Part shown: piece after piece, positions 34,756 through 49,736 of the stretch
Position numbering within the stretch: position 1 is the stretch's first letter
How the letters are laid out: the number at the start of each line of letters is the position of its first letter
Assembly: GCF_013033965.1 (NCBI RefSeq)
Contig: NZ_WQFE01000001.1
Span: 124,001-188,000, forward strand
Direction of reading: 5' to 3'
From: Ruegeria atlantica
Lineage (GTDB): Bacteria; Pseudomonadota; Alphaproteobacteria; Rhodobacterales; Rhodobacteraceae
DNA length: 64,000 nt
The notes under the pieces: model-generated
The model's database searches: none
Seen by the model: only the letters and a program-made list of their open reading frames with translations
Told to the model about the DNA's origin: nothing
Translations under genes and position numbers: made by a program

Positions 34756-36018
34756 ATGTTCTGGTTTTTTAGGGACTGTTTGTCCCGTTTTCGATCCTCT
34801 ACTGTTAAGCCCGTTGCATTCGGTGCGCATGTTGCGAATCCGGATGTTTCCACTGTTGTGCCCGACCACGGTCAACTGAATATCCCATTGGCAGATGTTC
34901 AGGCCCAGGATGAGATTGGGCGAAGCTCGATTGAACAGGGGCGTTTTCTGGCCAGACAGGATCGCTGGGCAGAATTATCCGACCTGATGCACAAAGCAGA
35001 CGACGCGCGGAAGGCTGCGCCGGACGGAATGCCCATCGCCGAATTGCTGGCATTTGGCGCGCGGGCCGATGTAGTTCTGGCAGCAGAGCACGCCCTGTCC
35101 GACGCCAAAGCGCTGTCAGAATTTGATGTCCTGAGCGGTATTTCCGAGCTGGAAGACGAGATGCGCGCGCATTCCGGCGATCCAATGATCGCCCTGGTCG
35201 TGGCGTTGGCGCATATTGATTTGGCCTGGGCATGGCGCGGCACAACGAACGAGGCAACCTTGCCCTCACTTCACCAGTCCCGTTGCGCCGCCCATTTCGA
35301 CCGGGCTGCGGCAATCCTTCCCAAATGCCAAGAAGCCGCAACGGACAGCCCCATTGTTGCTTCGGCTGGCTGCGCGATTTTAGCGGGCCAACGCAAGGCC
35401 AACACGCGGGTGGCAGATGAATACGAGCGGTTGATCAAACTCGACCCGATGAACCATCGGCACATGCGCGCGATGGGCACTCACCTGCTACCGCGTTGGT
35501 TTGGCAGCTATGGCGAGCTTGAAGTACAGGCGCTGCGCATGGCGGCTCAGACTCGGGATATCTGGGGAGCCGGAGGCTATACTTGGGTTCAGTTCGATGC
35601 GATTGCCCTGGACGAAGAAGCCTGCACGCGACTGGATGTCGATTACTTTCTGGAAGGCATGCATGACATTCTGCGCCGACGCCCTGACCAGCAGACCGTG
35701 AACATGCTGTCGGCTTACTGCGCCATCACGATCCAGAACGGCGATGGACAGTGCGACAAGGCTGATCTGGTACGCAGCCAGATACATGAGGCCGCAAACT
35801 GGCTGATCCGGGATCACCTGACCGAACTGCACCCGATGATCTGGGCGCATGCTGCAAATGGGTTCAACAACAGCGTTCGGATCAACTCACCCGAACGGTT
35901 CGCGGCCCGCGGGCAGCGGGATGCCCTGCGCGCGATTGGCGATCTGTTCCGCGATGAGTTGCGCAGCGGATTGGATGTGACGTTTACTCCGACGGGTTTA
36001 CGCCTGTCCGGGCACTGA
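34756..36018 (+). CDS. Hypothetical helical-repeat protein
   Basis: About 420 residues. No named family recognised. After a basic N-terminal segment the sequence is mostly helical with TPR-like spacing (RFLARQDRWAELSDLMHKADDARK near 75-95; HFDRAAAILPKCQEAATDSPIVASAGCAILAGQRKANTRVADEYERLIKLDPMNHRHMRAMGTHLLP near 180-250). The start is uncertain: ATG 34756 has a poor ribosome binding site and a TTG at 34702 is possible. Flanked by about 130 bp of AT-rich sequence upstream and by gatB downstream on the same strand. Confidence 0.75.
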   Translation: MFWFFRDCLSRFRSSTVKPVAFGAHVANPDVSTVVPDHGQLNIPLADVQAQDEIGRSSIEQGRFLARQDRWAELSDLMHKADDARKAAPDGMPIAELLAFGARADVVLAAEHALSDAKALSEFDVLSGISELEDEMRAHSGDPMIALVVALAHIDLAWAWRGTTNEATLPSLHQSRCAAHFDRAAAILPKCQEAATDSPIVASAGCAILAGQRKANTRVADEYERLIKLDPMNHRHMRAMGTHLLPRWFGSYGELEVQALRMAAQTRDIWGAGGYTWVQFDAIALDEEACTRLDVDYFLEGMHDILRRRPDQQTVNMLSAYCAITIQNGDGQCDKADLVRSQIHEAANWLIRDHLTELHPMIWAHAANGFNNSVRINSPERFAARGQRDALRAIGDLFRDELRSGLDVTFTPTGLRLSGH

Positions 36019-36088
36019 TTCCCCCTTGCCCCTCGCCCCTGCCGGGCCTAATACGCAGGCTTAGACTTCTGCGGAAATGAGGCGCGCC

Positions 36089-37600
36089 ATGCTCGACCTG
36101 ACATACGAACTGCCCAAACCCAAAACCATTGCCGGGGCCAAGCACGATTGGGAACTGGTCATCGGGATGGAGGTGCACGCTCAGGTCTCATCCAATGCCA
36201 AGCTGTTCTCGGGCGCATCGACCCAATTCGGGGCCGAGCCGAACTCGAACGTGGCCTTTGTGGACGCGGCAATGCCGGGGATGCTGCCGGTGATCAACGA
36301 ATATTGCGTGGAACAGGCGGTGCGCACCGGTCTGGGTCTGAAGGCGGATATCAACCTGAAATCGGCGTTTGACCGCAAGAACTATTTCTACCCCGACCTG
36401 CCGCAAGGTTATCAGATTTCCCAGCTTTATCAGCCTATTGTGGGCGAAGGCGAAGTGCTGGTTGAAATGGGCGACGGCACCGCGCGCATGGTTCGCATCG
36501 AACGCATCCACATGGAGCAGGACGCGGGCAAATCGATCCACGACATGGACCCGCATATGTCCTTTGTCGACCTGAACCGGACCGGCGTCTGCCTGATGGA
36601 GATCGTCAGCCGCCCCGACATCCGTGGCCCCGAAGAGGCCGCCGCCTATATCGCCAAGCTGCGCCAGATCATGCGTTATCTGGGCACCTGCGACGGCAAC
36701 ATGCAGAACGGCAACCTGCGGGCGGACGTGAACGTCTCGATCTGTTTGCCGGGTGCTTATGAGAAGTATCAAGAAACGCAGGACTTCTCGCATCTGGGCA
36801 CGCGTTGCGAGATCAAGAACATGAACTCGATGCGCTTTATCCAGCAGGCGATTGAGGTCGAGGCCCGCCGTCAGATCGCCATCGTCGAAGGTGGTGGTAC
36901 GGTGGATCAGGAAACCCGCCTGTACGACCCGGACAAGGGCGAGACACGCTCGATGCGGTCCAAGGAAGAAGCGCATGACTACCGCTATTTCCCCGACCCC
37001 GACTTGCTGCCGCTGGAGATTGAGCAGGCTTGGGTGGACGATATAGCTGCCAACCTGCCCGAGCTGCCGGATAACAAAAAAGCGCGCTTTATCAGCGAGT
37101 TCTGCTTGACCGACTACGACGCATCTGTCCTGACCGCTGAGGTCGAGTCAGCTGCCTATTTCGAAGACGTAGCCAAAGGTCGCAACGGTAAACTGGCCGC
37201 GAACTGGGTGATCAACGAGCTATTCGGCCGATTGAAGAAAGAAGACCACGAGATCACCGACTCGCCTGTTTCTCCCGCGCAGCTGGGTGGCATCATCGAC
37301 CTGATTTCTTCGGATGCCATCTCGGGCAAGATCGCCAAGGACCTGTTTGAGATCGTCTACACCGAAGGCGGCGACCCTGCGCAGATCGTCGAAGACCGCG
37401 GCATGAAGCAGGTGACCGACACCGGCGCAATTGAATCCGCTTTAGACGAGATCATCGCCGCCAACCCGGCGCAGGTCGAAAAGGCCAAGGTGAACCCGAA
37501 ACTGGCTGGTTGGTTTGTTGGTCAGGTTATGAAAGCCACCGGCGGTAAGGCCAATCCAAAGGCCGTGAACGAATTGGTCAGCAAAAAGCTGGGATCGTAA
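36089..37600 (+). CDS. gatB: Aspartyl/glutamyl-tRNA(Asn/Gln) amidotransferase subunit B
   Basis: 503 residues. GatB signatures are clear: [24 protein letters not shown] (about 17-40), [50 protein letters not shown] and [18 protein letters not shown]; the C-terminal YqeY-like tail ends [11 protein letters not shown]. It amidates misacylated Glu-tRNA(Gln)/Asp-tRNA(Asn) with GatA and GatC. The ATG at 36089 has GAGG 7 nt upstream; an ATG at 36077 is also possible. Confidence 0.97.
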
Positions 37601-37649
37601 GCTTTTCTGCTTGAACGACTTTAGGCGCAGGGCCTGCTTATTCTGCTCG

Positions 37650-37699
37650 GCCCTGTCGCACCTTCGCGCAACAGACGGCACAGAATTTGCCGACAGGGC
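37650..37699. repeat. Long-loop inverted repeat between gatB and the DUF4177 gene
   Basis: GCCCTGTCG (37650-37658) and CGACAGGGC (37691-37699) form perfect 9-bp arms around a 32-nt loop, 50 nt after the gatB stop and 66 nt before the next ATG. It could be a 3' end structure of gatB or a structured leader; there is no adjacent T-run. Confidence 0.4.
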
Positions 37700-37764
37700 G
37701 AAGATGACTTTTCGAAACCCGGCAACATGTTAGATTGCATGGGATCGACAACCAGGAAAATCTG

Positions 37765-38175
37765 ATGCAGCGCTACGAATACAAAGTTGTCCCGGCCCCA
37801 CAAAAAGGCACCAAGGCCAAGGGTGTCAAAACTGCAGAAGGGCGATTTGCAGCGTCGGTCGAACAGGTTCTGAACCAGATGGGCCAGGATGGCTGGGAAT
37901 ATCAGCGTGCGGAACTGTTGCCCAGCGAAGAGCGCTCGGGCCTGACCTCGTCCACTGTGAACTGGCGCAATGTTCTGGTGTTTCGGCGTGAGATAGCAGT
38001 TGAGTTTTCATCGGCGCGCGAGTCGGTTGAGGACAGCGATGATGTGCCTAAGGCTCAGCCTGTGCCCGGACCCGAAGAAGTGCAGGCCCCCGCTCCGATT
38101 TCGGAAGAGGTCAAAGACCCTCCACTGACCCTGAAGCCCTCGGACCTGTCCGAAAAGGACAAGGAGCAGACCTGA
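37765..38175 (+). CDS. DUF4177 domain protein with disordered acidic tail
   Basis: 136 residues. The N-terminal 75 residues (MQRYEYKVVPAPQKG, LNQMGQDGWEYQRAELLPSEER, NVLVFRRE) match the DUF4177 pattern of a small alpha/beta domain with the conserved GW. The last 60 residues are low-complexity, rich in P, E and S (VPKAQPVPGPEEVQAPAPISEEVKD) and probably disordered. The ATG at 37765 has AGGAAA 7 nt upstream. Function unknown. Confidence 0.8.
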   Translation: MQRYEYKVVPAPQKGTKAKGVKTAEGRFAASVEQVLNQMGQDGWEYQRAELLPSEERSGLTSSTVNWRNVLVFRREIAVEFSSARESVEDSDDVPKAQPVPGPEEVQAPAPISEEVKDPPLTLKPSDLSEKDKEQT

Positions 38176-38211
38176 GCGGCCTGCCCAGCGGCGCTGGTTC
38201 CTCCGACTACG

Positions 38212-38601
38212 TTACTCTGCAGCGTTTGCCGCTTGGCTCAGATCTTGTGCCAGCATCAACGCATTGCCGTCCGGGTCGTAGAAGGTCGCGGTGCTGACCA
38301 TGCCCTCGATCGTTTCCGTCGGGCCATCAAACCTGACGTCCGCAGATTCAAGCGCCTGACGCGCCATTGCAATATCCGACACTCCGAACACCGGCACGGT
38401 GTTGCCGGGCGCAGGCTCGGCCTGTTCGCCCAAACCCAGCGTCACGCCCTCGGTTTTTGTCTTCAGTTCACTCCAACCGGCCTCATCAATGTGATGGATC
38501 AGTTCAAACCCCAGCTTGGCTTGATACCAGTCGGCACTGACATGCCTGTCACGCACGGACATGGCCAGCGTTATCGTGTTTTCCAGTGAAACGAGTGGCA
38601 T
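38212..38601 (-). CDS. VOC family (glyoxalase/bleomycin resistance-like) protein
   Basis: 129 residues, one vicinal oxygen chelate unit pair: ITLAMSVRDRHVSADWYQAKLGFELIHHIDEAGWSEL at the N-terminus and VSTATFYDPDGNALMLAQDL at the C-terminus. The reaction cannot be assigned. The ATG at 38601 has AAGGA 8 nt upstream. Divergent from a tandem HxlR-type regulator with a palindromic operator between the starts, so expression is probably controlled by that regulator. Confidence 0.87.
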   Translation of the reverse strand: MPLVSLENTITLAMSVRDRHVSADWYQAKLGFELIHHIDEAGWSELKTKTEGVTLGLGEQAEPAPGNTVPVFGVSDIAMARQALESADVRFDGPTETIEGMVSTATFYDPDGNALMLAQDLSQAANAAE

Positions 38602-38624
38602 CGAACTATCCTTTTTGCAAAAAT

Positions 38625-38642
38625 TAAAGTAACTATACTTTA
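38625..38642. promoter_or_regulatory. Palindromic operator between VOC gene and HxlR-type regulator
   Basis: TAAAGTA acta TACTTTA is a perfect 7-bp inverted repeat with a 4-nt spacer. It ends on the first base of the regulator's ATG and begins 24 nt upstream of the VOC start. AGTA-N4-TACT resembles sites of HxlR/YodB-type winged-helix repressors. Overlap with the start codon means the regulator has almost no leader, or that its own transcription begins inside the site. Confidence 0.65.
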
Positions 38643-39178
38643 TGGACATAACGATTCTTGTCAAGCTTACGTCTCGCGCCTGGTCTCTGAACATTCTGGC
38701 GCTAATGCATGCGGGCACTCCGGGGCGACAAGCGCCCTTGCTGGCTGCGACCAGCGCCAGCAGAACTGCTTTTGTCCAAAGCCTTGACCACCTGATTCAG
38801 CTAGGTTTTCTGGAACGGAATCCCGGGCATGGTCATCCGCTGCGCCCTGAATTCAGACTGACGCCAGACGGTGAATCTGTGGCCGAAACCGCCAGCCGGA
38901 TCGTAAATGCAGTGCCGGACGACAATGATTTCGCACTGCTCAGACGCAGCTGGACGGCCCCTATCCTGGCGCTGACCGATAGGCCGCAACGTTTTTCGAC
39001 ACTCAAATCCGGTCTGATCACGATTTCCGACCGCGCTTTGTCGACGTCGCTTCATCGCCTTGAAGAACAGGAATGGATTCGACGAGACATTGATGCGTCT
39101 CATCGGCTCCCGTTCCCAACCTACCGCGCGGTGAATCAGGGGATCGCGGTTAACAGGGCCATTTCCCTGTTCGCCTGA
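38642..39178 (+). CDS. Tandem HxlR-like winged-helix transcriptional regulator
   Basis: 178 residues consisting of two similar winged-helix halves. Half one: LTSRAWSLNILALMHAGTPGRQ then FVQSLDHLIQLGFLERN; half two: LRRSWTAPILALTDRPQRF then STSLHRLEEQEWIRRD. The shared R-x-W-x-x-x-I-L-A-L and LxxL-E/GF-hydrophobic-R pattern indicates an internal duplication of an HxlR-type domain, which normally acts as a dimer of single domains. Likely controls the divergent VOC gene through the palindrome at 38625-38642. No ribosome binding site precedes the ATG. Confidence 0.75.
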   Translation: MDITILVKLTSRAWSLNILALMHAGTPGRQAPLLAATSASRTAFVQSLDHLIQLGFLERNPGHGHPLRPEFRLTPDGESVAETASRIVNAVPDDNDFALLRRSWTAPILALTDRPQRFSTLKSGLITISDRALSTSLHRLEEQEWIRRDIDASHRLPFPTYRAVNQGIAVNRAISLFA

Positions 39179-39216
39179 CCTACCCTGTTCGCCTGACCTA
39201 CAGAGACAGATTCTGT

Positions 39217-39471
39217 TCAGACATCAATATCCAGCGCCAGCGCATGAATGCGGGGCACAATATCGCCCAGCGCTTTATGCACGGCACGGTGGCGGGCGAC
39301 GCGCGATTGCCCCTCGAAAGCACGGGCTCGGATGCGGACGTTGAAATGGCTTTCGCCGCCCTCCTGAAACCCGGCATGACCGCGGTGGCTTTCGCTGTCG
39401 TCCACCACCTCCAGCTCACGCGGGTCAAAGGCAGCCTGCAGGCAGGTTTGGATCTCGTCGGTCACAGTCAT
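39217..39471 (-). CDS. bolA: BolA family protein
   Basis: 84 residues. The BolA fold is evident: TDEIQTCLQAAFDPRELEVVDDSESHRGHAGF, then ESHFNVRIRARAFEGQSRVARHRAVHKALGDIV with the conserved R-H-R-x-V-H-x-x-L segment. BolA proteins pair with monothiol glutaredoxins in iron-sulfur trafficking or stress morphology. An upstream in-frame TTG (39483) is an alternative start. Divergent from the J-domain gene, as is common in Rhodobacterales next to cobS. Confidence 0.92.
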   Translation of the reverse strand: MTVTDEIQTCLQAAFDPRELEVVDDSESHRGHAGFQEGGESHFNVRIRARAFEGQSRVARHRAVHKALGDIVPRIHALALDIDV

Positions 39472-39578
39472 TTTTTTGCTCAAGGGCGAAAAATTTACCG
39501 CCCCCCTCTTCTACTTTCGGCTGCTTAGACTAAACTGCTGCCTCCGAGTCGAAAAGATGTGTTCGTAAGGATCAGAGC

Positions 39579-40205
39579 ATGACGAAATCAGACCCCTTCG
39601 GATTCGATATGTCCGTTTCCAGCGCCAAGAAAAAGAACCCGCGCGGGCGTCGTGGGATGTCTGGCGCGTCTGAAACCTCGACGCGTATCTGCGATCACGA
39701 AGGTTGCAATGAACCGGGCAAGTTCCGCGCGCCCAAAGCCCCGGATGTGCTGGACGACTTTTTCTGGTTCTGCCAGCAGCACGTACGCGAATACAACAAC
39801 AAGTGGAACTTTTTCGACGGCACTACCGAGGCCGAGCTTAATGCGCAGCGGTCCAAGGACAAAGTGTGGGAGCGCGAGACCAAGCCGATGGGTGATCCCG
39901 AAGCGCGCGCCTGGGCGCGTCTGGGCATCGAAGACCCCCACCAGGTGCTGGGCGCAAACAGCACGCAGAACAAAGGCCGCACCTCGGGCGGCGGCGGTCG
40001 TCGCCTGCCCCCCACCGAACGTCGCGCAATCGAGATTTTGGAAGCCAACGACAGCTGGACAAAGGCCGAGATACGCAAGGCCTACAAGAAACTGATCAAG
40101 GTACTGCACCCGGATATGAATGGCGGCGACCGTTCTCAGGAAGAACAGCTGCAAGAGGTCGTCTGGGCTTGGGACCAAATCAAGGACAGCCGGAACTTCA
40201 AGTAG
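39579..40205 (+). CDS. J-domain (DnaJ-like) protein
   Basis: 208 residues. The J domain sits at the C-terminus (about 150-208): RRAIEILEANDSWTKAEIRKAYKKLIKVLHPDMNGGDRSQEEQLQEVVWAWDQIKDSR with the essential HPD motif. The N-terminal part carries CDHEGCNEPGKFRAPK and FCQQHVREYN, giving possible metal-binding Cys/His pairs. No G/F or zinc-finger DnaJ domains, so it is a class C J-protein that would recruit DnaK to a specific client. In relatives this gene directly precedes cobS; here 8.5 kb intervene. Confidence 0.93.
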   Translation: MTKSDPFGFDMSVSSAKKKNPRGRRGMSGASETSTRICDHEGCNEPGKFRAPKAPDVLDDFFWFCQQHVREYNNKWNFFDGTTEAELNAQRSKDKVWERETKPMGDPEARAWARLGIEDPHQVLGANSTQNKGRTSGGGGRRLPPTERRAIEILEANDSWTKAEIRKAYKKLIKVLHPDMNGGDRSQEEQLQEVVWAWDQIKDSRNFK

Positions 40206-40512
40206 TTTTGTCAATTTCCGCATGGACCGGAACGGCTATTTAGCTGAGCGCAGCGCGGGTCCCGGTATCACCGGAGCCTGCAACTTGCGCTGTACGGGAG
40301 CAAGAACCCCAAGCTGCCGCTGCGACAAGAACTGGATGCTGCGACTGCATTTGGCGGCCCCGAGCCCATAGTGTTCTTCACAGGTCCTAACCCACGGTGC
40401 AAAGCTGTTCCAAGAAAATTACTCTGTAACACCGCTTTCTTGACTTAGGGCTAAGCCTTCGACACGACTAACGGGAACACATTAGGATCACACAATACAG
40501 AGACCAACTACA
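40206..40512. other. Non-coding left edge of accessory island
   Basis: No credible gene. Composition shifts from GC-rich at the dnaJ-like end to AT-richer by 40400. No integrase, tRNA remnant or inverted terminal repeat was seen. The region immediately before 40513 holds no strong ribosome binding site, and an in-frame TAG at 40483-40485 limits how far upstream the next gene can start. Confidence 0.6.
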
Positions 40513-41085
40513 TTGAAAAAAAGTAACTTCCTGTACTACGCAGCGGGCGGATGGTTGTTTCTGGCTGTCATGGCCGGAGTTTACTTTCTGTTTCAGGCAA
40601 CGTTGCCTTCTGCAGACGTGGCACGCGTTTCACGCCCTACTGTGTACACTTTGGACGTGGAGAACTTTGAACCCGGCCAGTCTGCAACGTTCAGGCTTGA
40701 CCAAGTTCCAGTGGTCATTTGGCGACGAGATTTTAAGCAAAAAGTTCAGGCACTTGAGCTCCTTGGTGTCGAAATCAACGGAAATGCAAACTTTCTCGAG
40801 GAGGTCCGGGTAAACGAAGAAATAGAAATCGAACCTGACCGCGTTTTGAGGTTTGAGTGGTTTGTTGTGAGCCCAATCAACACTGGCGGACACGGGTGCA
40901 TCGCACTACCAGATGCAGGAGACTTGGGTGGTTTCTACGACCCATGCCAAGATGTTCATTTTGATCTTTGGGGGAGGGTCAGAAAAGGACCAACTAATAT
41001 GGACCTTCAGGTTTTGCCATGGAGCATTTCTGACGATAGTAGTGCAATAATTGTCGATGTCAGCAATGCGCCACGGCTTGAATAG
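40513..41085 (+). CDS. Rieske-like protein lacking the 2Fe-2S ligands
   Basis: 190 residues that follow the layout of the cytochrome bc1 Rieske subunit end to end: NFLYYAAGG and a hydrophobic anchor (about 5-30), PSADV (32-36), a beta domain with PVVIWRRDFKQKV (66-78), then GC-IALPDAGDLGGF and GRVRKGP near the C-terminus. The cluster boxes are altered: CTHLGC reads TGGHGC (124-129) and CPCHG reads DPCQD (143-147). All four Fe ligands are therefore gone while both disulfide cysteines (C129, C145) remain. It cannot hold a normal Rieske cluster. Start is TTG at 40513, limited by an upstream in-frame stop; the ribosome binding site is weak. The true petA is not in the window. Possible role as a structural or regulatory decoy is speculation. 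Confidence 0.75.
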   Translation: MKKSNFLYYAAGGWLFLAVMAGVYFLFQATLPSADVARVSRPTVYTLDVENFEPGQSATFRLDQVPVVIWRRDFKQKVQALELLGVEINGNANFLEEVRVNEEIEIEPDRVLRFEWFVVSPINTGGHGCIALPDAGDLGGFYDPCQDVHFDLWGRVRKGPTNMDLQVLPWSISDDSSAIIVDVSNAPRLE

Positions 41086-41116
41086 TAGCGCCGCAATCCG
41101 ACTCTAGTGCAAAGGC

Positions 41117-41179
41117 AGCTTTGTCCGCAGAGCCGCCATCCGCTCCTTATTTTGACTTCGAATGTCCGCTACGAGCCCA
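41117..41179 (-). repeat. Island repeat R1 (about 60 bp, full copy)
   Basis: On the minus strand it reads GGGCTCGTAGCGGACATTCG, then AAGTCAAAATAAGGAGCGG, then ATGGCGGCTCTGCGGACAAAG. Near-identical copies lie at 42789-42853 and 44452-44516. It contains a ribosome binding site AAGGAG and an ATG; the frame encodes MAALRTKLPLH and stops. No larger gene follows this copy. Confidence 0.9.
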
Positions 41180-41355
41180 GAGTGACCGATGCTGCACCAC
41201 GCTTGAAGGTCAATTTTTCGATATTCGCACAACACGATGTTCAGCGCTCAAACTTCAATTGTGCTCGAAGGTTGAGCAATGGCATCCAAAGCAGTGCCAA
41301 ATGCCAAAATGTGCCAAGTACTAAATGAAGTCTTGTCGCTGAAACTGGAGAAATT

Positions 41356-42657
41356 TCAATCTATTTTCTGCGAAAGAGCGGTTCTGATTTGGTGAACGTT
41401 CATAAGAGACAAAATACCGAACAAGACCACTCCAATCGCAGCGCCCGTCAGTATCGAAGTTTGAACCATAGCGAGTTCTTCAAATGCGGATGTTTGCCAG
41501 TAGAGCAAAGCCATTGCCATCGCTGGGAGAAAAACTGCGCTGTTGAAGCACTCAAGCAATCCAAAACTGATGCTAAAAACCTTGCGACCTCGAATTCGTG
41601 CGTCAAACGTGGTCTCGATACTGATCGGTAGCCAAGAAAATTCTTCGAAGTTTTGACGACCTCGGGAAACAAGTCGGGTCAGATGCCCGGTGTGGGCATT
41701 GAAATAGTAAGAAAGAGCGACCAAGATAAGAGGTGATGCCAAGACGGCAAGGGAGCCTGGAACCTCTGTTCCCAATATGGATATCGTTTGATTCGTTGGA
41801 CTTGCGTCAGACTTAATAATCTCATCTCCCAACAACGAAGACAGATCTACTAGCGGTACGTCAAACAGGTTTGCGTCAGCAGAACGTAGCCCAGGCGCAA
41901 ATATCACTTGATCGTTTTCGACGGTTAGGAACTCTTCATCAATCTGGGTTGATCCAAGCCAGTAGATGAAGGAAGAGTCTTCAATCTCGACGATATTAGC
42001 GACTGCGTCAAAGTTCAGTTGGGGACCGTCTTGCCGATCAATGTGTCGATGGTAGTTGAGGTAGGCCGGAATGGAAATTGGGCCAGAGTCAACGAAACCG
42101 TCATCGTTCGGTTTCAAGCTATCTTTGTCTAATACGAAGTTGTCGATTTCCCAAGCCGGAGACCAATTTACCTCCAGGAAGTCCTTGATTTGACCATAAA
42201 GGTTATCAACGTCGAGAAAAACCAGTTGTATATTCTTTTCTAAAGGTAAGTTATTGATTTTGTTTAGCTCAGAGATTGAGCGTTCCGGCAGCCCTGAAGG
42301 GATGAACTTACTGATGAAAACTCTGCCCTCATGCAAACTTGATTGCAGCTGATCAGCAATCTCTTGAACATTGCCGGGGTAGAGATCATCAGCTTCCAAT
42401 TTTCGATAAATGTCACCTTCAGGCGAGAAGTGCGCGGCTGTTTGCTCGCTTATCCTGGCTTCTGCAAATTCGTCGTATGCAGTGAGATTGACTAAGGAAA
42501 GGCCGTCAATAATCTGTTTTTGCTGAGTTTTATCTTCGGGTGGTATGATAGACAACGCAAAAACAATTGTCACAAGTGAGACCGCCATGATCAAGCGATG
42601 CAAAGCACGTGTGGATTTAAGGGCGTCTTCGATCATACCAGTCTTTTTTAGGGCCAC
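41356..42657 (-). CDS. Membrane protein with large extracytoplasmic domain, unknown
   Basis: 433 residues, no family recognised. One N-terminal transmembrane helix (about 19-38), a 260-residue hydrophilic domain that would be periplasmic, then three C-terminal helices (about 300-322, 365-390 and 400-424). The basic loop TRLVSRGRQNFEEF between helices 2 and 3 would be cytoplasmic. Codon use is AT-richer than the flanking core genes. It stands alone on its strand between repeats R1 and R2. The topology resembles a sensor or receptor without an output domain, but that is only topology. Confidence 0.75.
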   Translation of the reverse strand: MALKKTGMIEDALKSTRALHRLIMAVSLVTIVFALSIIPPEDKTQQKQIIDGLSLVNLTAYDEFAEARISEQTAAHFSPEGDIYRKLEADDLYPGNVQEIADQLQSSLHEGRVFISKFIPSGLPERSISELNKINNLPLEKNIQLVFLDVDNLYGQIKDFLEVNWSPAWEIDNFVLDKDSLKPNDDGFVDSGPISIPAYLNYHRHIDRQDGPQLNFDAVANIVEIEDSSFIYWLGSTQIDEEFLTVENDQVIFAPGLRSADANLFDVPLVDLSSLLGDEIIKSDASPTNQTISILGTEVPGSLAVLASPLILVALSYYFNAHTGHLTRLVSRGRQNFEEFSWLPISIETTFDARIRGRKVFSISFGLLECFNSAVFLPAMAMALLYWQTSAFEELAMVQTSILTGAAIGVVLFGILSLMNVHQIRTALSQKID

Positions 42658-42788
42658 ATCCTATTTCTGCCATCGATGTGTTTACGCTGTTTCGTAATTC
42701 TAAGGTCTATCCGGCCTGCCCCGCAATGGTGACTAGAACGTTTTCTTGTGCTTCAGAGCTGACTTTGGCGCAGTCGCAGCGAAAGCCC

Positions 42789-42853
42789 GCTTCGTCCGCA
42801 GAGCCGCCATCCGCTCCTTATTGTTGACTTCGAATGTCTACTATGAGCCCAAA
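42789..42853 (-). repeat. Island repeat R2 (full copy)
   Basis: Same unit as R1, with CAACAATAAGGAGCGG followed by ATGGCGGCTCTGCGGACG. The internal ATG frame gives MAALRTKRAFAATAPKSALK and stops five codons later. Lies between the 433-residue and 221-residue membrane protein genes. Confidence 0.9.
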
Positions 42854-42902
42854 GTCTCGGAGGCGGCGATTGCCATAAATGACTGATTTCACATTGTGTA
42901 GC

Positions 42903-43568
42903 TCAATACACGCTTTGAAATATCTTCGACGTATTGACGCTGCCCTTTGTGAGATCCTGCGACCACAATTCATAACGAATACCGTGCTTTGCAAGTTCAA
43001 GAAAAACCCGATGGGGGTTGATGCCTGCGGTTGAGCGATCAAAGGTCAGGACTCGGTCATCGGTCAAATAAAGTTCGAAGCGTTCCCTGGTCTCAGTGTA
43101 TTCGCCATCACTGTCTTTGCCTGTACTAAGTGTCTCCAGCCGTTGCGCCTTTGCGATATCTTTTAGTTCGATATCCATCGGTAAATTATCACAAGGTATG
43201 GCGGTATCCCATTTCAGTCTGCCAGCATCTATTGTGACTTTCCAGCCTCCCGGTGCGTTGAAAATACGCAACGTTCGTCGGCCCTCGCTCAATGCAAAAG
43301 CACCGCCTACCAAAGCGCAAAGAGCAAAAAACACTTTGAAGAATCCCCCGATATGATCGGCCGGATGAATTGCGATGACATAAAGTACAGGCCAAATCAG
43401 CCCGACGCAGACCCACAAAATGTGTATGCTGGCGACGCGCAGCTTTGTTGATTGGATGACATTCGGTTCTATCACAATCGCTCGGTAGCACGGAACTGTA
43501 TCGGAAATATGACAACACCTGCGTGGGAGTATTGGTCGCTCGTTTTCACTGAGATAAGTACAGATCAT
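42903..43568 (-). CDS. Two-TM membrane protein with PH-like C-terminal domain, unknown
   Basis: Up to 221 residues. Two hydrophobic helices (about 45-67 and 73-92) precede a soluble domain of about 120 residues (WKVTIDAGRLKWDTAIPCDN, MDIELKDIAKAQRLETL, FELYLTDDRVLTFDRS, PHRVFLELAKHGIRYE). The strand/helix order resembles bacterial PH-like domains and parallels the protein at 34197-34625. The N-terminus is uncertain: the ATG at 43568 gives an unusual Cys-rich leader, and a GTG 31 codons later is an alternative. AT-rich relative to the core. Confidence 0.65.
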   Translation of the reverse strand: MICTYLSENERPILPRRCCHISDTVPCYRAIVIEPNVIQSTKLRVASIHILWVCVGLIWPVLYVIAIHPADHIGGFFKVFFALCALVGGAFALSEGRRTLRIFNAPGGWKVTIDAGRLKWDTAIPCDNLPMDIELKDIAKAQRLETLSTGKDSDGEYTETRERFELYLTDDRVLTFDRSTAGINPHRVFLELAKHGIRYELWSQDLTKGSVNTSKIFQSVY

Positions 43569-43722
43569 CTGGCGCTTTATCTGCTACGGCAGCTTTGTCC
43601 GTAAATCGATGATCCGCTGAGAACCCGTAGCGGAGGGAGTTGAGACTTGTATGAATGCCTGCTTTTCGTCTGAAGCGCAGCAGTCACAGTTTGACCACAT
43701 TGGACCGGTAACCACCCGTTGT

Positions 43723-44376
43723 ATGAGGAAAATTGTATTAATTCTTGTTGTTGCCTCAGCCGCGTTTGCGGCATGGCAGTACAAACTGATGAGAACTGCT
43801 AACCAACAGCTTATTGTAGCTGAGCAGCGGGTTGCAGATGCAATTTCTGCCGGAACCAATAGCCTAAACTTCAGCGACCTTGTCGATCTTCGGAAACTGC
43901 CAGCCAACATCGGCGATGTTCCAAACTTAAAATACCTGAATGCACGGGGAACCAGCCTAAGCGATCTGACCGGGCTGGAAGGTAACGTGACGCTTGAACA
44001 TCTTGACGTGAACATGACACGGGTTTCCGATCTTAAACCGCTTCAGGGCTTGCCAAATCTGAAGTTGGTTTACCTTCACGATACCTGGGTGTCCGATGTG
44101 TCGCCCATCGCAGCAATACCGTCACTTGAGCGCCTTGATATTGGCACGACACAAATTGACACGCTGCAGCCTGTTGCACAGATCGAAAGCTTGGTCTGGT
44201 TGAATCTTCACAACAGCCACGCGCTTGATGGGTCTCGTGAGTACTTTGCCATCCTGGAGGAGCGTCCATTTCTTGAGTTGTCAGGTGGGAGCGCCTACCG
44301 CCAAGATTATCGACCGGGTTGGCAGTACAACGCAACGCAGCGCATTTCGCGTCTGAGAGAAGAACTTGGACTCTGA
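43723..44376 (+). CDS. Membrane-anchored leucine-rich-repeat protein
   Basis: 217 residues. The N-terminus (MRKIVLILVVASAAFAAWQY) is a signal peptide or signal anchor. From about residue 65 there are four to five LRR units of about 22 residues with the internalin-like pattern L-x-x-L-x-[ILV]-x-x-[TN]-x-[ILV]-x-[DS]-[ILV]: YLNARGTSLSDLTGLEG, HLDVNMTRVSDLKPLQG, YLHDTWVSDVSPIAA, RLDIGTTQIDTLQPVAQ. It is predicted to be extracytoplasmic and protein-binding. Start chosen at the ATG immediately before the signal sequence; an upstream in-frame ATG (43651) would hide it. Confidence 0.78.
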   Translation: MRKIVLILVVASAAFAAWQYKLMRTANQQLIVAEQRVADAISAGTNSLNFSDLVDLRKLPANIGDVPNLKYLNARGTSLSDLTGLEGNVTLEHLDVNMTRVSDLKPLQGLPNLKLVYLHDTWVSDVSPIAAIPSLERLDIGTTQIDTLQPVAQIESLVWLNLHNSHALDGSREYFAILEERPFLELSGGSAYRQDYRPGWQYNATQRISRLREELGL

Positions 44377-44451
44377 TGGCTGTCCGTTCAAGGGCAACGG
44401 AATCTTCTCGAAAAGCGAAAGCGGTCCTTCATAAATCTGCAGACAATGTCC

Positions 44452-44516
44452 GCTCAGTCCGCAGAGCCGCCATCCGCTCCTTATTGTTGACTTCGAATGT
44501 CCGCTACGAGCCCAAA
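44452..44516 (-). repeat. Island repeat R3 (full copy)
   Basis: Same unit as R1 and R2 with CAACAATAAGGAGCGG and ATGGCGGCTCTGCGGACT; the internal frame gives MAALRTERTLSADL and stops. The rest of 44377-44716 contains no gene that can be supported. Confidence 0.9.
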
Positions 44517-44716
44517 CCCGACGCCGTTTGAAGAAGCGGCGAATGTCACGATCCTGCCTATTCGCTGAGCTTTGGTTGGATGTCGGCGAGCATTTGTTTC
44601 AAGCATGCGTTCGCGCGGTGTAGGGTTTGACCTCAAATACTGTGTCCAAAAGGACGGCCTTTTGTGCTAAAGTGTTGACTAAAGTCTCGTCCTTTTCCGG
44701 GATCTGTGGAGCAAGA

Positions 44717-46183
44717 GTGAATGGTATGACACTCCTAGAGGCGCTTCTTTCGAAGGGTGACACGCCCGCCGTAAGCTTCGACGCGACGCTCTCTTTGGAG
44801 GCGTTTCTTTCACTTCAAGACGCACTGACAAAATCTGACTGGAACACTGTAGGAAATTCCGCCATTCAGATGATCGAAAGTGCTTTCGGATCGCTTGATG
44901 GCGCATTGGCCAGATCCGACAAGCATGAGTTGCTCGGACCCGTGTTTGCCAGTGGCTTTGTAGCAACATTTGTCTCGCACTTTGTTCAGCACGCCGATTT
45001 CGAGGTTGCCCTATCTGAATTTGAACAGAGTGCTGACCTGAACACACCTTTTGATCAAGAGGCTAGAGCTGATGTAGCCGAAAGGCTGCGCGCTGTAGCA
45101 AGAGGAGATATCGATCCCTTCGACCGGGTGCGTGAGGAGATATCGGAATTCACTGGCTCACCGATTTCGCACGGTGCACTGAGCATCCTTGCCCGCGGTC
45201 TACTTGGTTTGGCGCACCATGCTTTCAATCGAAGTCTTTCAAACCCTGTGCCGCCGTTCGTGCCCATTGTCGCGCAAGTCGATGCATGCGAGGCGCTGAT
45301 AGACCAGAAATCGGCCGCGCTTACGGAGCACATTTCGAATCTTCAGGCAGCTTGTTCCGCTAAACAGCCAGAGTCTGTCGCTTTTGCGGCGTTGATGCTG
45401 CGGCAGTTTTGTCATCGCGAGATTCCGCAGCTTGCTAGGGTCTTGGCAGCTTGTTGGCGGCTCGCGGATGCTTTGGCTTTTTCAGGCTCAGGCTCGGCCG
45501 CTGAGGGTTGCGGAGATCTGGGCGCGCGCGGTCATTTGGTTTTACGTGAGATGATCGCGTTTACTATATCGGGTTATCGACTGGCCGGTGTTGCAGGTGG
45601 TTTGCCAGACACGGAGCAGATTCAGTCACTTTATGAATCCGCTGGTTCCCTTCCGCTGGACGGCACAATGCCAAATGGAGTGAACCGTGCAATACATAAC
45701 TTGGCAGCCGGAGATGACGACACATTCGTTGAAATTCTAGGCAGGATTATGGATTTATCCTCCAGAATCGACGATGAAGACAGGTTGATTGGCCGCATTG
45801 ATTTGACGGATCTTTCAAGCGGTGCTGAAGTCACGGCGTTTGGCTTCTTTTTGAACCCTGTAAGTGTTGGAATGACGAAGAACGCCTTTGTCCGTTTGTC
45901 GGGCACCTTTCATACAAAGTTAGACCTCAATGATGGCTTGCCTGGCATCATTGTCGATCGTCTTCCATTGGCAGAATTAGCGAACGGCCAGTGGCGGGCG
46001 GGACTGGTTCGCGGAGCAATGCCATTTTTTCCAGTATATCGAAACAGCCACAACACAAGATGGACTTTTGGACCGCATTTGCAAACCCAAGGGAGTTTTG
46101 ACCCAGCAACCGCTGGTGCATCAGAGCTCAATTTCCTCAGGTTTGGAATACCAGAAGAGGATGAGAGCCGAGATGACGGTTGA
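44717..46183 (+). CDS. Hypothetical soluble protein, first gene of an overlapping pair
   Basis: About 488 residues, no family recognised. GTG at 44717 was chosen for GGAG 5 nt upstream; ATG 44726 and TTG 44627 are alternatives. No signal peptide or transmembrane helix is evident. The N-terminal two thirds look helical (EALLSKGDTPAVSFDATLSL; GLLGLAHHAFNRSL; LMLRQFCHREIPQLARVLAACWRLADAL). The C-terminal third has strand-rich stretches (GRIDLTDLSSGAEVTAFGFFLNPVS, FVRLSGTFHTKLDLND) and ends in an acidic tail. It overlaps the next gene by 11 nt, so the two products are probably made together. Confidence 0.75.
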   Translation: MNGMTLLEALLSKGDTPAVSFDATLSLEAFLSLQDALTKSDWNTVGNSAIQMIESAFGSLDGALARSDKHELLGPVFASGFVATFVSHFVQHADFEVALSEFEQSADLNTPFDQEARADVAERLRAVARGDIDPFDRVREEISEFTGSPISHGALSILARGLLGLAHHAFNRSLSNPVPPFVPIVAQVDACEALIDQKSAALTEHISNLQAACSAKQPESVAFAALMLRQFCHREIPQLARVLAACWRLADALAFSGSGSAAEGCGDLGARGHLVLREMIAFTISGYRLAGVAGGLPDTEQIQSLYESAGSLPLDGTMPNGVNRAIHNLAAGDDDTFVEILGRIMDLSSRIDDEDRLIGRIDLTDLSSGAEVTAFGFFLNPVSVGMTKNAFVRLSGTFHTKLDLNDGLPGIIVDRLPLAELANGQWRAGLVRGAMPFFPVYRNSHNTRWTFGPHLQTQGSFDPATAGASELNFLRFGIPEEDESRDDG

Positions 46184-46631
46184 TAGAATCGAGGCTTGCA
46201 GGAGCGTGCAAGAAGCGTGGACGCAGGCCAAACTTGACGAATTATTGATCAAGGCCGAAGCGGAAAGCCTGCGTGATGATTATATGGAGCTCTACGACCT
46301 GCTGAACGAGGCGCAGGAGGTGCTTCAGGAGGGCGGTGAGGAGCTCATCGATCTCTTCAATGATTTAATAGAAGACCCCATAAATGAGGTACTCCTCACC
46401 CCGATCTATTGGGCGCGTTTTATAGATGCGATCGGTACCAGCGGTGTTGCGCCGCTCTTTATTATGGCGCCGAAGTTAGAGCAGCGATACCGGAGATGGC
46501 AGAAGAAGGAAGAACAAATTCCAGATGCCGAGGAGGCTACCGCGGATGCGCTAAATGCCTGGAATCATTGTTTCCGCGGTGCACATTTGGCAAAAAGCCG
46601 CCGAGAGAACTCGCTTCCGGCGCCTCAGTAA
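46173..46631 (+). CDS. Hypothetical acidic helical protein, second gene of the overlapping pair
   Basis: About 152 residues. It starts inside the end of the previous gene (ATG 46173; ATG 46161 is an alternative directly after AGAGG). The N-terminal 95 residues are strongly acidic and coiled-coil-like (KLDELLIKAEAESLRDDYMELYDLLNEAQEVLQEGGEELIDLFNDLIEDP), followed by a hydrophobic segment (VLLTPIYWARFIDAIGTSGVAPLFIM, about 100-125) and a basic tail. That layout would suit a partner that binds or tethers its neighbour. No family recognised. Confidence 0.7.
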   Translation: MTVDRIEACRSVQEAWTQAKLDELLIKAEAESLRDDYMELYDLLNEAQEVLQEGGEELIDLFNDLIEDPINEVLLTPIYWARFIDAIGTSGVAPLFIMAPKLEQRYRRWQKKEEQIPDAEEATADALNAWNHCFRGAHLAKSRRENSLPAPQ

Positions 46632-46922
46632 ATCGGCCCTAATCGCCAGGGAGATAAGGTCTTCCTCCTTCGTCCATTCAAAGGTGGAAAATTCCAGTTC
46701 GCAATGTCCCTGATCCCTGAGAGAAGGTCACGTGCTGCGCTGAGGCACATGCGGTCTAGCTAGCCGTCCGGATCAAACGACACCGCTTCTTATTGAGTTG
46801 ATGTGCCCTTGGTTTTTGAGCCAGGCGATAACAACCGTTTTGGCACAGCCGATACATCCAAAGCCGTCATTGGAACTTTCGTAGCCGAAGTCAGCTTCGT
46901 CCGCACAACAGACCTTGGCTCC
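46632..46922. other. Non-coding stretch with degenerate island repeats
   Basis: No gene supported. A degenerate copy of the island repeat (R6) lies at about 46892-46940 (minus: TCCACAATAGGGAGCC and TGTGCGGACGAAGCTGAC), reaching into the 3' end of the next gene. A weaker resemblance, CAACTCAATAAGAAGCGG on the minus strand, lies near 46785-46803. Confidence 0.55.
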
Positions 46923-47294
46923 CTATTGTGGACCTTCGCTTATTGCTCTTGACCGAAAGACCGGCAGATTGACCTCGATGTCAGAAAGCAGCTCGCGCGC
47001 CTCGTTCTCGGAAAGCAATGTGCCGTACGAATTGTAGGCTTCCTCGGCATCCTCGTTGGCATCGTCATCTCCTTCAAAGACGCTTACCCAAAGAGCAATC
47101 GAGATTAACTTGTTGGCAGTCGCTACGATATTGAGCTGATTACTACTGCCAGCTAAGTCAAACGTCAGACCGAGCTCCTCGCCTGCGTACTCTTCTTCGA
47201 CGACCTCTATCGATGCCGGAATCCCCAAGTGTTTGCGCAAATTGGATTCGAGTTCGTTGATCGGTCTGCCCTTTTGGCCAAAGAAAACGGTCAA
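46923..47294 (-). CDS. Small acidic protein, unknown, TTG start
   Basis: 123 residues, no family recognised, acidic (VFEGDDDANEDAEEAYNSYG). The N-terminus TVFFGQKGRPINELESNLRKHLGIPASIEVVEEEY reads as an alpha/beta domain. Start codon TTG at 47294 is preceded by CAACAATAAGGAG with 6-nt spacing; an ATG at 47299 is out of frame and stops at once. The upstream gene's TAA lies inside the same AATAAGG, 10 nt away, so the two are coupled. Confidence 0.72.
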   Translation of the reverse strand: MTVFFGQKGRPINELESNLRKHLGIPASIEVVEEEYAGEELGLTFDLAGSSNQLNIVATANKLISIALWVSVFEGDDDANEDAEEAYNSYGTLLSENEARELLSDIEVNLPVFRSRAISEGPQ

Positions 47295-47304
47295 AACATT
47301 CTCC

Positions 47305-47508
47305 TTATTGTTGACTATCCATACCCCTACCGAACTCAGGGGGGAGCAGACTATTTAAGCTATCGTCGCCACCGTCCTCCAGTTTCTCCATGAGTATTCT
47401 ATTCTGGAGTTGGTATTCCCGTTCCGCCTCTTCACGCGTGCTTACTCGTGCCACGAGATCCTTGCCGACAAATACTTCCCAGAGGCCATATTCGTTTCTC
47501 TGGATCAT
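47305..47508 (-). CDS. 67-residue protein, unknown
   Basis: Product opens MIQRNEYGLWEVFVGKDLVARVST and continues REEAEREYQLQNRILMEKLEDGG. The first half looks like a small beta unit of the kind that reads sequence context (compare small WG/DUF-like domains), the second is a helix. ATG 47508 was chosen because CACAATAAGGAGCAGGGC precedes it; an upstream in-frame start at 47535 ignores that site. No family recognised. Confidence 0.68.
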   Translation of the reverse strand: MIQRNEYGLWEVFVGKDLVARVSTREEAEREYQLQNRILMEKLEDGGDDSLNSLLPPEFGRGMDSQQ

Positions 47509-47556
47509 GCCCTGCTCCTTATTGTGAAGGTTCAAGTTCAGGTTCGATCAATTCGC

Positions 47557-47735
47557 CTATTTAGACCAGGGAGTACATTGAATCAGGTTGCTTACTCTGG
47601 TGCACTGCCTAACCTCTCCGGTCTTAGAATTGACAACCCATATCGAATCTTCACTCGCTTCCACACCCTGATATGGACTGGCATGGAGCAGCGTTGGCGC
47701 GAAGAAAAGGAGCGTAGCGAGAACTGCTTTTTCAT
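47557..47735 (-). pseudogene. Small exported protein gene with a frameshift in an A5 run just after the start
   Basis: CACAATAAAGAGGTCAAA precedes ATG 47735, followed by AAAAAGCAG. As written, the frame is MKKQFSLRSF and continues to an unrelated stop. One base more in the A run would give MKKAVLATLLFFAPTLLHA, a textbook signal peptide, followed by SPYQGVEASEDSIWVVNSKT and a two-Cys tail ending CTPWSK at the TAG at 47557. The second frame has no start of its own. Either a true frameshift, a phase-variable tract or a sequencing error. Intact it would be a 59-residue periplasmic or secreted protein. Confidence 0.55.
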
Positions 47736-47779
47736 TTTGACCTCTTTATTGTGAACAGTCCATGTGTTGCGGCCGCTCT

Positions 47780-47947
47780 CTACTTCTCACCATTTGTCCT
47801 GAAGTAGTAGAGGTAAGCCAAAGCTATGAATACCAATGAAAAAGCTAAATCGACACCGAGATAAGAAGCACCAGTTACCCACCTGAATACAACCATGGCC
47901 GCAACCATCACGCACAAAACCGCGAACTGGATAGATCGCCTATTCAT
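47780..47947 (-). CDS. 55-residue membrane protein
   Basis: Product starts MNRRSIQFAVLCVMVAAMVV and ends FRTNGEK. Two hydrophobic helices (about 7-22 and 30-48) connected by FRWVTGASYLG suggest a small two-pass membrane protein. ATG 47947 has AAGGAG 5 nt upstream, part of the island repeat R4 (CAACAATAAGGAGC). First of four small minus-strand genes with near-identical initiation sites. No family recognised. Confidence 0.65.
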   Translation of the reverse strand: MNRRSIQFAVLCVMVAAMVVFRWVTGASYLGVDLAFSLVFIALAYLYYFRTNGEK

Positions 47948-47950
47948 GAC

Positions 47951-47994
47951 TGCTCCTTATTGTTGACTTCGAATGACCGCTCCGAGCCCAAAGT
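47951..47994 (-). repeat. Island repeat R4 (partial; provides the RBS of the 55-codon gene)
   Basis: On the minus strand it reads TTTGGGCTCGGAGCGGTCAT, TCGAAGTCAACAATAAGGAGC, then diverges into CAGTCATGAATAGG. It lacks the MAALRTK segment; a different gene start is joined directly to the AAGGAGC. Confidence 0.85.
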
Positions 47995-48020
47995 TTTCGG
48001 GATAATTCACGCATGATTCT

Positions 48021-48458
48021 CTATAGTGACTTTTTCATGAACCAACGACGATGCCCTACGGGTTCATTACCGGGTGCGTTGCTAAGTAGTCCAAAATCTG
48101 AATACCCTAGACGAAGATAGAACTCTCTCGCCTCTTGGTTAGACGTATCTAGCCATGCGCCATGACATCTCAAAGTTTTGGCACGTTCTTCGGCATCAAG
48201 CATCAGCATCTTACCGACGCCGGTTCCTCTTAGGTCCTCGTGGACCCACAGAAGTTTAACCAAAAACCATCCGTAAGAAGTAGAACCTGATACCCCCGCC
48301 ATGAGCTTTCCGGCTGAGTCTCTTTTTGAGAACACAATACTGGAGTTCGTTGATTGGGTATTCAACCCGGCGAGCGAAGCTAGCAGGTTTGTTTCGATTT
48401 CCTTTGATACGTCAGAGTGCGTTGATAACGGTTCCATCAAAGTCATTGAGCTAGTCAT
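48021..48458 (-). CDS. GNAT family N-acetyltransferase
   Basis: 145 residues. The acetyl-CoA binding motif A is clear: LLWVHEDLRGTGVGKMLMLDAEERAKTLRCHGAWLDTSN (R-G-x-G-x-G variant RGTGVGK near residue 78), followed by motif B EAREFYLRLGYSDFG. Substrate unknown. ATG 48458 chosen for GGAG 6 nt upstream. Divergent from cobS, with repeat R5 in between. Confidence 0.87.
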   Translation of the reverse strand: MTSSMTLMEPLSTHSDVSKEIETNLLASLAGLNTQSTNSSIVFSKRDSAGKLMAGVSGSTSYGWFLVKLLWVHEDLRGTGVGKMLMLDAEERAKTLRCHGAWLDTSNQEAREFYLRLGYSDFGLLSNAPGNEPVGHRRWFMKKSL

Positions 48459-48521
48459 CGGACGCTCCATGCTACGAGTTCACGAAAGCAACATTCTTAA
48501 AAAAACCAGTTTCGGCAAGGT

Positions 48522-48545
48522 CCGCTTTGTCCGCAGAGCAGCCAT
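48522..48545 (-). repeat. Island repeat R5 (MAALRTK half only)
   Basis: On the minus strand ATGGCTGCTCTGCGGACAAAG, matching the distal half of R1-R3 with one synonymous change, but preceded by unrelated sequence instead of AATAAGGAG. The frame (MAALRTKRTLPKLVFLRMLLS) ends just upstream of the GNAT gene. It marks the right end of the repeat-bearing region. Confidence 0.75.
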
Positions 48546-48749
48546 TGAATACCATTGACTAGGCGACTGCGGCAAACACCTCTTGGGTGGCCGCAATACT
48601 GATCCCATTCAAAGCGATAAGGCCAGTTTCAAAGAAACATCCGCCTATGCTTCTGCAAGCACGGCTTTCCCTTGCCCTTACCCGCAATATGTTGCACCAC
48701 ACACAGGTTCAAACCCGGCAAAGCGGGGCAAAGGATAAGGACAAGGCGA

Positions 48750-49736
48750 ATGGCTGACGGATCAATCGACGTAAACGCAAAACCCACCGAAGAAATTTCG
48801 GTCCGTGACGTGTTCGGTATTGATACTGACATGGCGATCAAAGGCTTTGCGGATCGCAGCGACCGTGTGCCCGCGATTGACCCGACCTACAAGTTCGACC
48901 CCGAAACCACGCTAGCGATTCTGGCAGGTTTTTCGCACAACCGTCGCGTGATGATTCAGGGTTATCACGGTACGGGTAAGTCGACCCATATTGAACAGGT
49001 CGCAGCCCGCCTGAACTGGCCCGCCGTGCGTGTGAACCTCGACAGCCACATCAGCCGGATCGACCTGATCGGTAAGGACGCCATCAAACTGCGCGACGGC
49101 AAGCAGGTCACCGAGTTCCACGAAGGCATCCTGCCGTGGGCCTTGCGCAACCCCGTTGCCATCGTGTTCGACGAATATGACGCGGGCCGTGCAGACGTTA
49201 TGTTCGTGATCCAGCGTGTGCTGGAGCATGACGGCAAGCTGACCCTGCTGGACCAGAATGAGATCATCACACCGAACCCGAACTTCCGCCTGTTCGCTAC
49301 CGCGAACACTGTGGGTCTGGGCGACACAACCGGCCTGTACCACGGCACGCAGCAGATCAACCAGGCGCAGATGGACCGCTGGTCGCTGGTCTCGACGCTG
49401 AACTATCTCAGCCACGATGCCGAAACGATGATCGTTCTGTCCAAGGCGCCGCACTACAACACCGAGAAAGGCCGCAAGACCGTCAGCCAGATGGTCACCG
49501 TTGCCGACCTGACCCGGACCGCCTTCATGAACGGCGACCTGTCCACCGTGATGAGCCCGCGGACCGTAATCAACTGGGCCCAGAACGCCGAGATCTTCCG
49601 CGATGTAGGCTATGCCTTCCGCCTGTCCTTCCTGAACAAGTGTGATGAGCTGGAGCGCCAGACGGTTGCCGAGTTCTACCAGCGTTGCTTTGACGAGGAA
49701 CTGCCGGAAAGCGCGGCGAGCGTGAGCTTGGGGTGA
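48750..49736 (+). CDS. cobS: Cobaltochelatase subunit CobS (AAA+ ATPase)
   Basis: 328 residues. Walker [10 protein letters not shown] at 71-79, Walker [12 protein letters not shown] with D141-E142, and the sensor region [33 protein letters not shown]. MoxR-like AAA+ motor of the aerobic cobalt chelatase CobNST, which inserts Co into hydrogenobyrinic diamide for B12. ATG 48750 chosen for the AAGG upstream and the MADGSIDVN opening; the longer frame is upstream leader. It overlaps the next small ORF by 4 nt (GTGA). Confidence 0.96.

Follow-up and report, generated by a model that had tools for sequence, protein, structure and literature searches.

In one of the most highly conserved complexes of respiration, the Rieske subunit serves as the mobile arm that carries electrons. 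Two canonical boxes, CTHLGC and CPCHG, provide the two cysteine and two histidine ligands of its cluster together with a disulfide pair. Within the bc1 complex the neck and tip of the subunit meet cytochromes b and c1, and both the length from anchor to neck and the ADV sequence of the neck matter for docking there. The loss of cluster ligands from a Rieske protein has precedents. NirD, the small subunit of nitrite reductase, has a Rieske fold without them; it is a soluble cytoplasmic subunit that belongs to another branch of Rieske proteins. Closer to the respiratory chain, a 'deranged' ISP that lacks three or four of the cluster ligands and keeps its disulfide cysteines has been reported from Acidocella, where, as we understand that account, it is the bc1 complex's own ISP and stands beside a deranged cytochrome b (PMC10715153).

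Here we analyze a gene in a 64,000-nucleotide stretch of Ruegeria atlantica DNA (contig NZ_WQFE01000001.1, positions 124,001 to 188,000; hereafter the window). An original prediction, made from the letters of the stretch, had read its product as a Rieske-like protein stripped of every iron-sulfur ligand. Sequence comparison shows that the product is a genuine full-length homologue of the bc1 Rieske subunit, and we conclude that this paralogue has probably been repurposed to a new role that does not carry electrons.

Results

A full-length bc1 Rieske homologue encoded outside petABC

The open reading frame list and its translation place the gene, and its two altered boxes TGGHGC (residues 124-129) and DPCQD (residues 143-147), exactly where the original prediction had put them. 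Its features are these:

40513..41085, + strand: ligand-less Rieske paralogue, TTG start, 190 amino acids and a stop (open reading frame, translation, TIGR01416 match with E=1.3e-14)
40513..40527, + strand: N-terminus MKKSN, which replaces the twin-arginine RRD of canonical petA (alignment with 54 canonical sequences)
40528..40605, + strand: predicted membrane anchor, residues 6-31 (hydrophobic 19-residue window, mean Kyte-Doolittle 1.72)
40606..40626, + strand: neck PSADVAR, residues 32-38, which we take to be the counterpart of the bc1 ISP hinge (A34, D35 and V36 kept in 15 of 16 members, the exception being G130)
40879..40899, + strand: former ligand box 1, NTGGHGC, residues 123-129, C129 kept
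40939..40959, + strand: former ligand box 2, DPCQDVH, residues 143-149, C145 kept, D143 at the position of a cysteine ligand
40972..40998, + strand: former Pro loop, residues 154-162, GRVRKGPTN against the canonical GRIRKGPAP

The TTG start is common to the copies in genomes G006 and G245, the two nearest relatives of the window's gene. A longer N-terminus is excluded, because an in-frame stop lies ten codons upstream and no start codon falls in between. A promoter scan of 40200-41300 returned two promoter-like sites and one terminator-like site, the terminator not above the level of shuffled sequence, and an Rfam scan of positions 38000-50000 of the window returned nothing that reached the gathering score.

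The proposed parallel with the bc1 subunit along the whole protein was borne out by profile searches. The NCBIfam model TIGR01416 matches residues 4-180 of the paralogue with 54.6 bits, below the curated cut-off of 97.4 bits, and matches all 14 family members scanned. In the other direction, a profile of the 14-member family matches the R. sphaeroides bc1 ISP (2qjp_C) over profile positions 3-176 of 188 (E=1.3e-27), and phmmer of the paralogue against the PDB gave a best E of 1.6e-15. The Pfam scan assigned no family to the window's protein or to any of the 14 scanned members. AlphaFold2, with an input of only three sequences, returned a pLDDT of 42.2 for the paralogue, too low for a usable model, and its Rieske fold is predicted from sequence homology alone.

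A ligand-less family across Ruegeria and five other genera

The search for homologues that share the ligand-less pattern, suggested along with the original prediction, recovered 16 genes in 16 genomes, 11 of them in Ruegeria and the remaining five each in a different genus. Within the genus, a protein search of 54 Ruegeria genomes found the gene in 11. We built a family profile from the 14 intact members, leaving out two that carry nonsense codons. With all candidates scored in the 54 genus genomes, 11 matches reached at least 261 bits and the next, at the level of an ordinary petA, 104. The 394 genomes of the family draw held at least six carriers at 211 bits or more (next match 119) and the 385 genomes of the class at least one that passed E 1e-33, the window's own; 6/394 and 1/385 are lower bounds, with at most eight candidates scored per genome in both draws, and the class threshold of E<=1e-33 would hide distant forms. 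A plasmid search matched 41 records, all under 60% identity, and among the 15 matches listed ten lay under features named petA and five under none. The residue table and the tree include all 16 members. In this tree, which is unrooted and has long branches, a branch supported at 100/99 separates the ligand-less family from the rest.

What was lost from the Rieske tip and what was kept

Our reference was a set of 54 canonical sequences, selected with a motif that covers both boxes and RR/RK; they come from loci that scored best against the ligand-less profile or that lie in Ruegeria, and are not a random sample. The predicted replacement of all four cluster ligands (two cysteines, two histidines) extends to all 16 members: C123 and H126 of box 1 are missing throughout, as is the histidine ligand 146 of box 2, and residue 143, once a cysteine ligand, is acidic in every member (14 D, 2 E), with D143 invariant among the 11 intact members that bear the disulfide. 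Because all 16 members, each from a different genome, lack the ligands at these four positions, sequencing error does not account for the loss, and a misread or frameshifted sequence is rejected by the same agreement. Position 126 is a glycine in 12 of the 16. Ser 148, which hydrogen-bonds the Rieske cluster in the canonical protein, is missing from all of them, and in the Pro loop G154 is always present and P162 always gone. Box 1 of the window's protein is one residue longer than its counterpart (N-T-G-G-H-G-C against C-T-H-L-G-C), so that H127 is not the old ligand; its candidacy as a surviving ligand is rejected, as the relatives do not conserve it.

The claim that only the disulfide had been spared stands in part. 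C129 and C145 are indeed the sole cysteines of the 190-residue protein, but ten other canonical residues are spared there too (P144, H149, D151, G154, G159, G136, G140, W116, G55 and L26). Nor is the spared disulfide as strong an argument against decay as was proposed, for three relatives have lost both cysteines. The pair varies together: both are present in 13 of 16 members (C129 in 13/16), neither in G203, G359 and G322, and one alone in none. The sub-branch formed by these three (loci L045, L047 and L069) keeps the anchor length, the neck, WRR and H149xD151. Among the residues kept in all 16 members are L26, G55, G136, G140, H149, D151, G154 and L165. H149, the only histidine common to all of them, is just as invariant in the 54 canonical sequences, and so is D151. 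W70 was rejected as a mark of the family: it is tryptophan in 16/16 ligand-less members but also in 8/54 canonical sequences. A Rieske paralogue of the reverse pattern occurs at locus L142 (G043:C1:2770122-2770526), where CTH, CPSHG and the twin arginine are kept and both disulfide cysteines are lost.

At the N-terminus, R3, R4 and D5 stand at 100% in the canonical sequences, whose selecting motif includes RR. By motif, the R3R4 pair occurs in none of the 16 ligand-less members; the window's protein has KK, and the G359 copy has an RR one residue before the canonical place. The distance from L7 to V36 is 30 residues in 16/16 ligand-less and 54/54 canonical sequences. The canonical anchor residues A22, W24, P25 and N31 are lost in 11/11 intact disulfide-bearing members.

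Regional conservation was calculated on these 11 members, with the two nonsense-codon and three disulfide-less members left out. Mean column identity is highest in loop 2 (0.69), followed by residues 134-141 (0.64), the Pro loop (0.60), loop 1 (0.59), the neck (0.58), the anchor (0.47), the base fold (0.37) and the C-terminus (0.30). The corresponding values in canonical petA are 0.99 for loop 2, 0.89 for the neck, 0.87 for the Pro loop, 0.86 for loop 1 and 0.58 for the base fold. Since canonical petA ranks the regions in much the same order, the pattern may be partly an inherited framework. Twenty columns are invariant in the 11 members, which are 29-84% identical to the window's protein. The alignment suggests that the tip is still constrained after the loss of its metal ligands, the novelty being an invariant residue at a ligand position.

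Carriers retain a canonical petA

A separate intact petA, named in the original prediction as something to look for, is present: the genome's own petA-petB-petC is intact on another contig, C12, and the paralogue as the genome's only petA is rejected. Every carrier has, besides the ligand-less gene, a petA match at the canonical level; in 16/16 this match is on a different contig or, in the case of G245, at a distance of about 90 kb. The ligand boxes and RR are present in the canonical petA of 9/9 carriers read; the other seven (G005, G007, G012, G014, G015, G029 and G040) are represented by a match at the canonical level, boxes unread. Within Ruegeria the further canonical-level match is found in 11/11 carriers, with boxes read in four. 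Beyond the ligand-less gene, more than one Rieske match occurs in a single carrier out of 11 and in 13 of the 43 other genomes; one such extra, in G032, is a remnant.

Purifying selection and scattered decay

Codon comparisons suggest that the ligand-less paralogue is under purifying selection, far weaker than that on petA. In the closest trio (G000, G006 and G245) dN/dS is 0.29-0.32, and differences at the three codon positions number 22/10/31, 20/12/31 and 22/11/33, third positions being the commonest. More distant intact pairs give 0.13-0.33, rough values since most of these pairs have dS above 1. The G040-G005 pair, in which the G005 copy is broken, gives 0.42. For petA, the G000-G006 comparison yields a dN of 0.018 and a dS of 0.773.

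Decay, which the original prediction had set against repurposing, should show as stops and random substitutions among the homologues, and some decay is present. Most reading frames are intact (14/16), but the copies in G005 and G012 (L012 and L006) each contain one in-frame TGA where relatives mostly have tryptophan, and G032 holds, between ispG and a DsbA-like gene, a remnant with a frameshift and an internal deletion (L141). From the nonsense copies and the remnant it follows that the paralogue is dispensable in some lineages.

Probable movement as a single-gene unit

Two features on the forward strand bear on the movement of the gene:

40362..41133, + strand: shared segment of ~770 bp, mobile unit (blastn to G245 and G006, at other sites)
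41107..41184, + strand: direct repeat directly 3' of the paralogue (repeat search; the shared segment ends inside it)

The genes of the trio share 84% identity and occupy three separate sites. By blastn, 40362-41133 of the window matches G245 (L032) at 86.8% over 772 columns and G006 (L033) at 87.4% over 760; when 35001-47000 of the window was compared with these two loci (~12.5 kb each), there was no other match at E<=1e-3. The paralogue's dS is 0.275 for G000-G006 and 0.276 for G000-G245, against 0.773 and 1.118 for petA in the same pairs. Because the shared segment stands alone at different sites and the gene's dS is far below that of petA, the paralogue has very probably spread by horizontal transfer, as a unit of ~770 bp that holds one gene.

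The 78-nt direct repeat has further full copies at 42777-42856 and 44440-44517 and at least three partial copies (46883-46934, 47950-47994 and 48514-48545) in the region from 41.1 to 48.5 kb, all in + orientation. The three full copies served to build the repeat model, and their scores follow by construction. When the whole genome was searched at the DNA level (E<=0.01), copies turned up solely in this stretch, where they are interspersed with genes mostly without a known family; the repeats may mark a region assembled from single-gene units. Among the other carriers, G359 has a partial match immediately 3' of the gene (E=1.5e-5), and weak ones lie 3' of it in G245 (0.49) and in G203 (0.32, and also upstream, 0.30). 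As equally weak matches occur away from the gene (L086, 0.042; L085, 0.52), only the G359 match stands on its own. One repeat core was counted in eight genomes: it occurs 16 times forward and 23 times in reverse, whereas its reversed pattern occurs 10 and 12 times, a difference that is mild at best. An integron cassette was counted out as the nature of the mobile unit, with no integron integrase (TIGR02249) above cut-off in 5/5 genomes. Any tyrosine recombinase yields sub-cut-off matches to this model, and such matches were seen in all five genomes and in 14/14 control genomes.

The surroundings differ among carriers. The window's gene is not adjacent to petB or petC; around it are a DnaJ-domain gene, with gatB further up, and then genes that match no Pfam family and an LRR gene. 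Seven Ruegeria genomes, and G203 as well, carry the gene between a DsbA/ScsC-like gene and ispG. Its orientation at this junction in G203 (L084) is opposite to that in Ruegeria (L074, L075, L077-L081), which could reflect either a flip or two separate insertions into the same site. In four further Ruegeria carriers and four further genera the gene is not at this junction, and because these eight carriers have it elsewhere we claim no functional link to the DsbA/ScsC-like gene.

Discussion

The conserved ligand-less family with its well-supported branch (100/99), a dN/dS of about 0.3, an acidic residue 143 and a separate petABC agree with the original reading of this gene as repurposed and not merely decaying. 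We tentatively favor the view that the gene now encodes a periplasmic 'pseudo-Rieske', anchored in the membrane and free of cofactor, that docks on the bc1 complex as a non-redox partner, a proposal to which we give somewhat less than even confidence. The bc1 Rieske subunit would have been duplicated, and the copy that lost the four [2Fe-2S] ligands would hold no Rieske cluster. This copy may be inserted into the membrane by the ordinary Sec/YidC route, without Tat, and in most members its apo-Rieske head would be held together by a C129-C145 disulfide. Neck and tip, both among the conserved parts of the family, would then dock on cytochrome b/c1, or compete there with the true subunit, and the paralogue might serve as a brake on the complex, a placeholder or a stabilizer, with the host's normal petABC continuing electron transfer. 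Not all of the old bc1 contacts can persist, because A22, W24, P25, N31 and the histidine ligands of the tip are gone. Docking on bc1 has against it that the gene is unlinked to petA and that its presence is patchy (11/54 in the genus, at least 6/394 in the family draw). For the same reasons the decoy, assembly or regulatory subunit of bc1 suggested in the original prediction is a possible role only, although the neck and the anchor length persist. It is possible, if rather doubtful, that this horizontally moving gene encodes a dedicated cofactor-free Rieske mimic, a pseudo-subunit that selection keeps alongside the true one and that occupies the bc1 complex of marine Roseobacter-clade bacteria or regulates it.

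Part of the evidence may also be read in favor of a role unrelated to bc1, in which the cofactor-free paralogue would be a membrane-anchored periplasmic protein whose remodelled tip binds another partner or ligand. The canonical petA on another contig or ~90 kb away in 16/16 carriers, the tip with D or E at 143 in 16/16 and G at 126 in 12/16, the change of A22, W24, P25 and N31 in 11/11, and the mobility of a single gene, as is often seen for accessory functions, all accord with such a role; the exact anchor-to-neck length and the ADV neck (15/16) are not obviously needed outside bc1, and we consider the idea doubtful. If the partner of the acidic residue 143 were another metal or cofactor, bound together with H149 and D151 in place of the cluster, the presence of all three features in 16/16 members would be accounted for. 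Yet H149 and D151 are just as invariant in the 54 canonical sequences, which points to an older reason for their conservation, and H149 is the only histidine that all 16 share, so that we regard metal binding of this kind as very unlikely.

It is also conceivable that the gene is being lost, as a paralogue that its hosts can do without, spread by a mobile unit, under weak or lapsed selection and with no function now. The nonsense codons in G005 and G012, the G032 remnant, the patchy presence, the vanished disulfide of G203, G359 and G322, the weak constraint next to petA and the dN/dS of 0.42 for G040-G005 would all follow. What makes this unlikely is that 14/16 frames are intact, that dN/dS is 0.29-0.32 in the trio and 0.13-0.33 in the rougher distant pairs, and that 20 columns are invariant among 11 members that are as little as 29%, and up to 84%, identical to the window's protein.

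A stable family that has the anchor and neck of a Rieske subunit and no electron carrier would offer a ready-made test of what the subunit does apart from electron transfer, in docking, assembly and control. With it, the known pseudoenzymes would be joined by a respiratory pseudo-subunit. Moreover, the joint loss of ligands and Tat motif fits the idea that Tat export is needed only because the Rieske protein is folded around its cluster.

Comparison with known systems

The closest described protein is PetA itself (TIGR01416; 2qjp_C), with which the paralogue has in common full-length homology, a single anchor, a PSADV neck at the same distance, the disulfide pair and the framework of the head. 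It differs in lacking the four ligands and the twin arginine, in scoring below the family cut-off, and in lying outside petABC and coexisting with a true PetA. NirD is likewise a ligand-less Rieske protein, from another branch; the paralogue matches no Pfam family. Among the titles and abstract openings listed, none announces an extra ligand-less Rieske family.

The Acidocella ISP, compared here through its published description and not by sequence, resembles the paralogue in having lost ligands and kept the disulfide (PMC10715153). As the same pattern has already been reported there, the bare residue pattern is not new. The Ruegeria gene differs in being extra, unlinked, horizontally moving and Tat-motif-less, beside an intact petABC, from what that account describes.
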